Virus record (IMG/VR): IMGVR_UViG_3300017717_000027
Coordinates: 1-34,581 of that record
DNA length: 34,581 nt
Source: a virus
Strand: one strand, 5' to 3'
The translations under genes were made by a program, and so were the position numbers. This document shows positions 32,045 to 34,232 of this stretch, in pieces. Under the pieces are notes generated by a model. The model was not told the origin of the DNA. It saw nothing but the letters and a program-made list of their open reading frames with translations, and did no database searches. The stretch's first letter is position 1, and the number at the start of each line of letters is the position of its first letter.

Positions 32045-32737
32045 ATGTTTATTCACAAGCAACCTACAGGTGAGTTGCCACCCCTGAAGGCAAAAAATGT
32101 TGACGGTAAAAGATTTTACGAACATTTAGAAACAGGCAGTAAGTACCCCTCAATAACAAGTGTATTATCAATAATACAAAAAGAAGGTCTTAAAAAATGG
32201 CGTGAGAGAGTTGGTAACGAAGTTGCTAACCATATTATGATTACTAGTGCTAATCGTGGCACAGCAGTCCATAACATGATTGAAGACCATTTAAACAATA
32301 TTGACATTAATGATGTGGAAAAGTATAAGAAGCAATTTCTTCCACGCATGATGTTTCAGACATTAAAAAGCACACTTCAAAACATAAATAATATTAGACT
32401 ACAAGAGGCAGGCATGTATAGTGAAAAATATACAGTTGCAGGTCGTGTGGACTGTATTGCTGAATATGAAGGTAAACTTTCTATTATAGATTTTAAAACA
32501 AGCAAAGCAGACAAACAAGAAGATTGGATTGAGAATTACTTTATTCAAGGTAGTGCTTATGCTGAAATGTATGAAGAAAACTTTGGCGAAAAGATTGACC
32601 AAGTTGTTATATTGATTACCACAGAGGAAGGTTCTGTACAGATATTTAAAAAAGATAAAAAAGATTATCTACCTAAATTGAAAGAAGCAATAGAAAACTT
32701 TTACAAATGGATAGAAACAAATGCTAAAACAAATTAA
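32045..32737 (+). CDS. RecB-like PD-(D/E)XK nuclease
   Basis: A 230-residue nuclease. SITSVLSII and ANRGTAVHNMIEDHL form the N-terminal DNA-binding part; VAGRVDCIAEYEGKLSIIDFKTSK supplies Asp and the D-x-K catalytic residues; and YFIQGSAYAEMYEE is the conserved helix with Gln/Tyr (motif IV). This order is characteristic of RecB-type exonucleases found in cyanophages and pelagiphages, possibly used to degrade host DNA or in recombination. AAGGA precedes the ATG. It overlaps the next gene by 17 bases. Confidence 0.85.
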   Translation: MFIHKQPTGELPPLKAKNVDGKRFYEHLETGSKYPSITSVLSIIQKEGLKKWRERVGNEVANHIMITSANRGTAVHNMIEDHLNNIDINDVEKYKKQFLPRMMFQTLKSTLQNINNIRLQEAGMYSEKYTVAGRVDCIAEYEGKLSIIDFKTSKADKQEDWIENYFIQGSAYAEMYEENFGEKIDQVVILITTEEGSVQIFKKDKKDYLPKLKEAIENFYKWIETNAKTN

Positions 32738-33155
32738 AAAAGGAATACTAGGTATTGGATTGATTGTATTATTCTTTTTCTTATTATCTTTTGGATTAAA
32801 CAAAGCACAAGCAGGTGAAGGACCAGAGTTTTTACCTAATACAATACACCCAATACAAGTGCCAATGATGTGTGGCGAAAGCACAACAGTATTGACACAA
32901 ATTGTAAATGGGTTTCAAATGAAAAGTTTAGCTGCAGGTCAAGTAAAGGCAGGCGGCGACTTAGATGGTGTTGATATTGGTGTTATATCATTTTGGATAC
33001 ACCCTACTTTAGAGTATGGTGGTATGTTAATGACAATAAAAGAAGGCAATTTGACATGTTTATTAGGTTATGGTGTAAATTGGGAATGGGACACAGACTT
33101 AATGATAGATGTCGTAAACGAAGTTATCAATGAAGATGAGACAAGTACGCAATAG
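32721..33155 (+). CDS. Exported hypothetical protein ending in the tmRNA gene
   Basis: A 144-residue protein: a basic start, a hydrophobic signal (9-25) and a likely cleavage after AQA (residue 31). The mature domain has two Cys (MMCGES and LTCLLG), beta-rich, ending in an acidic helix. A periplasmic location is inferred. Its last codons and TAG stop (33153-33155) fall inside the 5' strand of the tmRNA acceptor piece, an overlap of a coding gene with a structural RNA. No family is recognised. Confidence 0.6.
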   Translation: MLKQIKKGILGIGLIVLFFFLLSFGLNKAQAGEGPEFLPNTIHPIQVPMMCGESTTVLTQIVNGFQMKSLAAGQVKAGGDLDGVDIGVISFWIHPTLEYGGMLMTIKEGNLTCLLGYGVNWEWDTDLMIDVVNEVINEDETSTQ

Positions 33156-33354
33156 GGACTTGGGTGCAATACCCAACACCTCCACCATTACAAAATTTAC
33201 ATATGGGGGTGATATAGGTTCGACCGTTGTGAGAAAGTTCATTGGAGATAATTCACTGGCGAGTGTAAACGTGACAAATGCAAACTTTAACGAGTATGCT
33301 TTAGCAGCCTAGTGTTGCTTAGGGTTTGCCTGTACCTCGTAACAGAAACAGGCA
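33148..33354 (+). ncRNA. ssrA: Permuted two-piece tmRNA (alphaproteobacterial type)
   Basis: The acceptor piece comes first: P2 strand CGCAAT (33148-33153), T-arm TTGGG-TGCAATA-CCCAA (33160-33176), acceptor CACCTCC (33177-33183) and ACCA to 33187. After 17 bases the coding piece starts GGGGGTG (33205-33211), which pairs with CACCTCC including the G3-U wobble read by alanyl-tRNA synthetase. GGTTCGACC follows, then GTTGTG (33226-33231) able to pair with the P2 strand. The tag frame ends ANFNEYALAA then TAG (33310-33312), the same length as E. coli ANDENYALAA. A 7-bp stem at 33327-33354 fits the downstream pseudoknot. It rescues stalled ribosomes. Outer ends are approximate. Confidence 0.9.
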
Positions 33355-33358
33355 CTAC

Positions 33359-33434
33359 GCCGCTTTAGCTCATTTGGTAGAGCAACTGATTTGTAATCAG
33401 TAGGTGCCCAGTTCAAATCCGGGAAGCGGCACCA
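33359..33434 (+). tRNA. tRNA-Thr (UGU)
   Basis: A 76-base cloverleaf with CCA encoded. Acceptor GCCGCTT pairs with AAGCGGC; D-stem GCTC/GAGC; anticodon arm ACTGA-TTTGTAA-TCAGT gives anticodon TGT, reading ACA; T-loop TTCAAAT. The T-stem has one A-C mismatch (33410/33420). It starts 4 bases after the tmRNA, so RNase P cleavage would also define the tmRNA 3' side. ACA is a frequent Thr codon in these A+T-rich genes. Confidence 0.9.
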
Positions 33435-33455
33435 TTAACAAGTGATAAGGAGATT

Positions 33456-33830
33456 ATGACAAAACAAAGTGAACAATTTTACGAGCTTCTGGATAAGATG
33501 AGACAAGTACACGACAATAAGAGGCATGATTATGCTTCTGTTGATGATGTATTCAAAAATTTTAGAACAAGTGAAATGGCAGGTATTCCTGCATGGAAAG
33601 GCGTTGCAATGCGAATAGGCGATAAGTTTAGTCGTTTAATGTCTTTCTGTAAACAAGGTGAATTAAAAGTACAAGACGAAAGTATTGGCGACACCTTAAT
33701 AGATATGGCAAACTATGCTATCATATGCCATATTTTATTTTATGAAATGAGAAACAAACAAATGAACGCACATAAAGACGATATAACAGAAAAGTTTTTA
33801 AATGCACAAGGAGATAATAATGACAGATGA
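33456..33830 (+). CDS. DUF1599/Nmad1 (nucleotide-modification-associated) protein
   Basis: A 124-residue protein. Residues about 15-75 carry the family pattern: VHDNKRHDYASVDDVFKNF, then GIPAWKGVAMRIGDKFSRLMSF. The Pfam family (PF07659) is described as nucleotide-modification-associated domain 1, seen in phages with modified DNA; its chemistry is not settled. AAGGAG precedes ATG 33456. It is the first coding gene after the RNA genes. If the name applies here it is relevant to the cluster at 12936-21966, but that link is inference. Confidence 0.7.
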   Translation: MTKQSEQFYELLDKMRQVHDNKRHDYASVDDVFKNFRTSEMAGIPAWKGVAMRIGDKFSRLMSFCKQGELKVQDESIGDTLIDMANYAIICHILFYEMRNKQMNAHKDDITEKFLNAQGDNNDR

Positions 33831-34023
33831 TAGTTCAGTAGATAAGTCTTTTGAGAATGAAACACCGGCACCAAGTCCTATGGTTCAGATTTCTATAAAA
33901 GAATACGACAAGTTAAAAGAGAAACAACATTTTATTACTGATAAAAGTTTAATTGAATACATTGACAAGATAGAATTTTTTGTCAAAGAATTAAGAAAAC
34001 ATATTGTAAGGACAGATATATAA
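33820..34023 (+). CDS. Small hypothetical protein
   Basis: A 67-residue protein. ATG 33820 is chosen because AAGGAG is 6 bases upstream; the in-frame ATG 33802 lacks such a site. An acidic, Ser/Pro-rich N-terminus precedes a helical Lys/Glu-rich C-terminus (IEYIDKIEFFVKELRKHIV). It overlaps the previous gene by 11 bases and joins gp33 in a TAATG junction. The function is unknown. Confidence 0.55.
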   Translation: MTDDSSVDKSFENETPAPSPMVQISIKEYDKLKEKQHFITDKSLIEYIDKIEFFVKELRKHIVRTDI

Positions 34024-34232
34024 TGACACCTAAACAATTTGCATTAGTAATAGAAAAACGAGCAAGTAAGAAAAGAATAAGTCACATGGAAGCTGTATTA
34101 GATTATTGTACTGAGAAACAGATTGAACCAGACGAAGTGACACATTTAATTAACAGAAACTTAAAAGAAAAAATAAAGGCAAATGCTGAGAATTTGAATT
34201 TCTTACCAAAGACAGCAACATTGCCAGTATAA
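34023..34232 (+). CDS. 33: gp33-like late-promoter transcription accessory protein
   Basis: A 69-residue protein. The pattern MEAVLDYCTEKQIEPDEVTHLIN followed by LKEKIKANAENLNFLP resembles T4-like gp33, the RNA-polymerase-binding protein that links the sigma55 factor gp55 to the sliding clamp at late promoters. The N-terminus (MTPKQFALVIEKRASKKR) is basic. It is shorter than T4 gp33 (112 aa), as in cyanophage homologues. The gene lies 9 bases before the peroxiredoxin. The call rests on motif memory, not a search. Confidence 0.65.
   Translation: MTPKQFALVIEKRASKKRISHMEAVLDYCTEKQIEPDEVTHLINRNLKEKIKANAENLNFLPKTATLPV

Follow-up and report, generated by a model that had tools for sequence, protein, structure and literature searches.

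The window analyzed here, a 34,581-nt stretch of viral DNA (IMG/VR record IMGVR_UViG_3300017717_000027), contains a two-piece, circularly permuted tmRNA gene of the alphaproteobacterial type at positions 33120-33357, identified with Rfam covariance models, ARAGORN and direct reading of the sequence; this gene and all features of the locus described below lie on the plus strand. The acceptor piece (33120-33187) comes first and ends with discriminator A33184 and an encoded CCA (33185-33187), followed by a 17-nt spacer (33188-33204) and the coding piece (33205-33357), which begins with G1 at 33205. The acceptor stem is formed by the 3' strand CACCTCC (33177-33183, with U70 at 33181) and the 5' strand GGGGGTG (33205-33211, with G3 at 33207), and all seven pairs form, including the G3-U70 alanine identity pair. 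The T-arm TTGGG-TGCAATA-CCCAA (33160-33176) is recognizable in the sequence, in the Rfam alignment and from covariation. The inner P2 strand CGCAAU (33148-33153) forms a duplex with GUUGUG (33226-33231), and a covarying outer helix, P2a, joins AGTTATC (33122-33128) to GATAATT (33247-33253). The tag frame (33280-33312) opens with an alanine resume codon, encodes ANFNEYALAA (GCA to GCC, 33280-33309) with the hydrophobic Ala-Ala end, and closes with TAG (33310-33312). The 3' hairpin GCCUGU...ACAGGC (33328-33353), together with the conserved GGGUU..ACCU..AACAGAAAC, aligns to the conserved 3' part of the alpha_tmRNA model.

Both relevant Rfam models match over their full length and above the curated cut-offs: RF04321 (tmRNA_permuted) at 33135-33312 with 97.7 bits (E 5e-18, cut-off 47) and RF01849 (alpha_tmRNA) at 33076-33356 with 81.7 bits (E 7.7e-21, cut-off 50). 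ARAGORN provides an independent prediction of a permuted tmRNA with the tag ANFNEYALAA*, followed directly by a tRNA-Thr. These results bear out the first-pass annotation, which had proposed, from the sequence of this T4-like phage, a permuted two-piece tmRNA of the alphaproteobacterial type with the acceptor piece in front, the GGGGGTG/CACCTCC pairing with G3-U, the same tag, and cuts at CCA 33187 and G1 33205; the order, the pairing and the cut positions can all be read directly in the sequence. The interval originally proposed, 33145-33358, is correct in location and slightly short in extent. The P2 region of the window departs from the Rfam model, the outer P2 with the best support being more distal; because AGTTATC pairs with GATAATT, the 5' end of the acceptor piece is probably near 33120, and the coding piece extends to about 33357, just before the tRNA-Thr, both ends being approximate. 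As a consequence of this more distal 5' end, the RNA would overlap the last 12 codons (stop included) of the open reading frame (ORF) at 32721-33155, which encodes a small protein with a hydrophobic N-terminus. A scan for sigma-70 promoters gave about as many sites as in shuffled sequences.

The tmRNA is flanked by a gene for a PD-(D/E)XK-type exonuclease (32045-32737) on the left and a gene for a gp33-like late transcription coactivator (34023-34232) on the right. The tmRNA lies between these two anchors wherever all three are found, which includes the isolates HTVC008M, Mosig and Melnitz as well as viral contigs, and it is present in 57 of the 80 viral loci to which the exonuclease led, several of the remainder being cut by contig ends. 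A gap of 11-26 bases separates the exonuclease and gp33 in cyanophages P-SSM2 and S-SRM01, four single-cell marine virus records and three viral contigs. The tmRNA is therefore not essential for this phage group, given that several relatives possess the exonuclease and gp33 without it.

A close relative is Pelagibacter phage HTVC008M (KC465899), in which the matched stretches are about 95% identical to the window and the acceptor piece and tag are the same. Its tmRNA, located at 145161-145370 and unannotated in both KC465899 and NC_020484, differs in having UUUGAC in place of UUCGAC, a 49-nt spacer that folds as a hairpin (the 17-nt spacer of the window is unstructured and contains no ORF, the empty form), and no tRNA-Thr. 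The tRNA-Thr(UGU) of the window (33359-33434) is precisely missing in HTVC008M, and the difference is flanked by GGCACTA and GGCACCA (window 33351-33436), which suggests loss or gain via a short repeat. We also observe a 16-bp exact direct repeat, AAGATGAGACAAGTAC, at 33133-33148 and 33495-33510, on both sides of the tmRNA-tRNA unit; it is present in HTVC008M as well, and the two copies fall in different reading frames of two neighboring genes.

The pelagimyophage Mosig EXVC030M, the record of which annotates SsrA, and the methylophage Melnitz encode permuted tmRNAs of the same type in the same exonuclease-gp33 locus, with spacers that differ from that of the window in length and content. In Mosig, a putative flavin-dependent thymidylate synthase is encoded just behind the tmRNA and gp33. 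The Melnitz tag is ANDNYVPVDYALAA, in contrast to ANFNEYALAA in the window, and its tmRNA is followed by a glutamine riboswitch, in contrast to the tRNA-Thr; no such riboswitch was detected at a relaxed threshold in positions 32600-33600 of the window. In Melnitz-2 (MZ577096; L138, 1461-1934), the tmRNA match ends at 1878 and the riboswitch (1886-1934) follows immediately on its 3' side. Although published as controlling the tmRNA, this element sits where it would act on the genes that follow, as their predicted leader rather than as a cis-regulator of the tmRNA.

As a type, the gene in the window is not new because two-piece phage tmRNAs were already published in 2022. According to that study, Melnitz carries a two-piece tmRNA, 53 such tmRNAs occur among phages, 50 of these marine or aquatic, their affinity is alphaproteobacterial, and the roles proposed are maintenance of host machinery or tagging of host proteins (Buchholz et al., 2022; PMC9004378). 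An expanded tmRNA database lists 79 unique phage sequences (PMC11915505). The gene in the window extends a published but little-noticed observation, namely, that T4-like marine phages infecting SAR11 and OM43 often have a ribosome-rescue RNA of their own.

Covariation was assessed in 123 distinct phage relatives, with candidates gathered by sequence patterns that already required CTCCACCA and GGGG; accordingly, the four acceptor-stem pairs fixed by the pattern, G3-U included, are not counted. Pairs were counted by sequence anchors in a script since the MAFFT alignment sets the outer P2 one base off in some rows. In the T-arm, 92% of the cells are paired versus 64% when strands are shuffled between sequences, a value above every shuffle, and in P2a, 71.5% are paired versus 51.5%, the maximum among 500 shuffles being 56.2%. 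The two acceptor-stem pairs left free by the pattern form in all 123 sequences, with three pair types each. The covariation of the T-arm and P2 across these relatives indicates that selection maintains this RNA as a tmRNA. The exonuclease-linked loci, in which the tmRNA was found with the covariance model, point in the same direction: in all 58 examined, the acceptor strand ends with UCC-ACCA and the coding piece starts with GGGG, so that G3-U can form in each, while the strand itself varies (CACCTCC, CGCCTCC, CCACTCC, CAGCTCC, CATCTCC or TGGCTCC) and the coding strands are complementary. When acceptor and coding pieces are swapped among 66 phage tmRNAs, the duplex becomes weaker (permutation p at most 1e-4), and a readable tag frame is present in 51 of 55 exonuclease-linked loci.

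For comparison with potential hosts, SAR11-type genomes were located first by sampling the class with a SAR11 16S probe and then within their family, which was entered via two genomes carrying the probe sequence TACAGTCATTTTCTTCCCCGAC; the label 'SAR11-type' is based on this probe together with small size, low G+C and membership of that family. An alpha_tmRNA was detected in 51 of 60 genomes of this family (Pelagibacteraceae). The host genes have the permuted order, the G3-U acceptor stem and the Ala-Ala tag end in common with the window but, in those read, encode 9-aa tags and contain spacers of about 12-13 nt. Complete host genes score 212-247 bits with the alpha_tmRNA model, far above the 82 bits of the window, so that the phage form is clearly derived. 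The host tags read are ANESYALAA, ANESYAIAA, ANDKFALAA, ANEQFALAA and ANNKFALAA, most of which share the ALAA end with the window. A separate pattern scan for permuted tmRNAs with tags resembling ANxNx(F/Y)A recovered 13 alphaproteobacterial loci, none of them titled SAR11. In three of the SAR11-type genomes (G425, G450 and G218; loci L464, L465 and L467), the last ~25 bp of ssrA recur up to 7 times within ~7 kb downstream, with small genes grouped in blocks between the copies, a pattern to be expected if elements integrated serially at ssrA; a fourth genome (G308) lacks such recurring repeats. In three loci (L464, L465 and L213), host ssrA adjoins a putative thyX gene (by reading), and the likeness to the Mosig neighborhood may be a coincidence.

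That the tag may differ from that of the host, as suggested in the first-pass annotation, holds for the window, since ANFNEYALAA is absent among the SAR11-type tags read, but not for its sisters: the near-identical phage tmRNAs of four loci (L220, L299, L302 and L306) encode exactly the host tag ANESYALAA, and most of their differences from the window fall inside the tag block. A further relative (L307) combines a flanking base of the ANESYALAA group with the tag of the window, and in another phage set that shares the same spacer, ADSQGFALAA (L236) alternates with ANLNSFALAA (L238). Judging from these sequences, the tag behaves as an exchangeable module that is swapped as a block.

Taken as a whole, we assign a probability of about 0.9 to the reading that the gene in the window is a functional ssrA of the alphaproteobacterial permuted type in a pelagimyophage close to HTVC008M. 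By analogy with established tmRNA biology, a single transcript would be processed by trimming to the encoded CCA end and by RNase P cleavage at G1, and the two pieces would remain paired via the acceptor stem and P2. The processed RNA would then be charged with alanine by the host AlaRS and bind the host SmpB. No PF01668 (SmpB) match was detected in the complete genomes of HTVC008M and Melnitz-2, the genome of the window itself being a fragment, so that the tmRNA, if used, would depend on host SmpB; the missing phage SmpB has no bearing on membership of the RNA family. The charged RNA could tag and release ribosomes that stall in infected cells, where mRNAs break often and transcription of host ssrA may fail. 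It is thus plausible, as originally proposed, that the phage RNA takes over or supplements host trans-translation and rescues ribosomes stalled by mRNA breakage.

One rival to this reading is that the gene could be a decaying or passenger copy of host ssrA, gained by recombination and unused. Its score well under the host genes and the lack of a tmRNA in some relatives are compatible with such an origin, and ssrA acquisition by gene exchange with a prophage is discussed by Buchholz et al. (2022; PMC9004378). However, the T-arm, P2a and the free acceptor-stem pairs covary across a diverse phage set, and most loci keep readable tag frames. Furthermore, a tree of the ~200-nt sequences places the phage genes in a group of their own, apart from SAR11, and shows no recent host copy, with the caveat that support is only 0.35 for the phage group compared to 0.98 for the SAR11 clade; descent of the phage genes from SAR11 is not settled by this tree. 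We accordingly regard a passenger copy as extremely improbable. A decoy role, in which the RNA would sequester SmpB or interfere with host trans-translation in the way suggested for the tag-less form of mycobacteriophage DS6A, would fit the apparent lack of SmpB in HTVC008M and Melnitz-2, and the tRNA-like-domain form from DS6A is reported to inhibit tmRNA in E. coli (PMC11915505, PMC4131195). A decoy, however, needs no tag features, whereas the RNA in the window retains the resume codon, the ALAA tag end and the stop along with CCA and G3-U, which makes this role highly improbable.

A functional tmRNA could also owe its main adaptive value to the tag, with the marked proteins being treated by host ClpXP or an adaptor differently from those that carry the host tag. 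The dissimilarity of ANFNEYALAA to the SAR11-type tags, the concentration of differences between near-identical phage tmRNAs in the tag block (ANFNEYALAA versus ANESYALAA), and the ADSQGFALAA/ANLNSFALAA alternation would all fit. Against this, the ALAA end is unchanged, and the exact host tag in some sisters implies that no single direction of change is favored; we therefore consider it unlikely that the tag is the main adaptive point. Altered proteolysis via the N-terminal half of the tag is possible, whereas a change at the ClpX-binding end is unlikely because ALAA is kept.

Spacer lengths in 55 loci that were reached through the exonuclease, and thus not chosen for the spacer, are up to 40 nt in 30 loci, 41-100 nt in 10 and over 100 nt in 15, compared to at most 61 nt among the host tmRNA spacers read, and ORFs are present in most of the long phage spacers. 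In the first of two spacer families, AAAGGAG directly follows CCA and precedes a short acidic ORF, the start of which is conserved, and a 38-aa ORF that overlaps it and has the consensus MKNPLVREVSKWMFRAYIVWSICADITLLSGIIYLVFF. The 38-aa ORF contains no internal stops, its variation is dominated by third positions, and the last base of its TGA lies exactly one base ahead of the coding piece in each of the 38 spacers tested (157-160 nt). For codons beyond the overlap, pN/pS is 0.27 compared to 0.96 and 3.3 in the two alternative frames; this family was collected with a pattern containing the Shine-Dalgarno site, which biases its frequency and Shine-Dalgarno conservation but not the codon statistics. 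The second family (MFKWLxx...KIPKYLSG) is found in Melnitz, where the ORF in the 142-nt spacer begins MFKWLSKTRLVVITRDYFRERNRKADAKIPKYLSG, and its relatives, with pN of 0.095 and pS of 0.352, again a ratio of about 0.27, and a third-position entropy of 0.50 versus 0.21 and 0.18. A further contig (L258) has a 499-nt tmRNA spacer with two ORFs, one of which is a 120-aa gene whose product has a homologue encoded by a stand-alone gene of Melnitz-2 (69065-69313; 53% identity over 69%, E 9e-22).

The spacer tolerates insertions, being empty in the window, a hairpin in HTVC008M and putatively protein-coding in many relatives, and we consider it fairly probable that it serves as a cargo slot, in which relatives hold, between the tmRNA pieces, small putative protein genes equipped with ribosome-binding sites of their own. 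If so, one transcript would yield a ribosome-rescue RNA and a short mRNA with ends made by tmRNA processing. This would be an unusual arrangement, with a coding gene sitting in the segment that is removed from a structured RNA precursor. Both the small putative protein genes in the spacers of many relatives and the difference in tag between near-identical phages look new. No report of a coding gene inside the spacer of a split RNA gene was found in the literature searched, a body that leaves out most subscription papers, and the accessible parts of Buchholz et al. (2022; PMC9004378) and of PMC11915505 do not mention protein genes in the spacer. These observations raise three questions for the cultured phages HTVC008M, Mosig and Melnitz: does a phage supply trans-translation during takeover, what makes the tag of near-identical phages alternate between the form of the host and other forms, and can a split RNA gene harbor a protein gene that is expressed? 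Finally, two further loci (L417 and L421) with the tag ANDNAPVGLRLAA contain a 277-nt spacer with an 82-aa hydrophobic ORF, an unrelated cargo.
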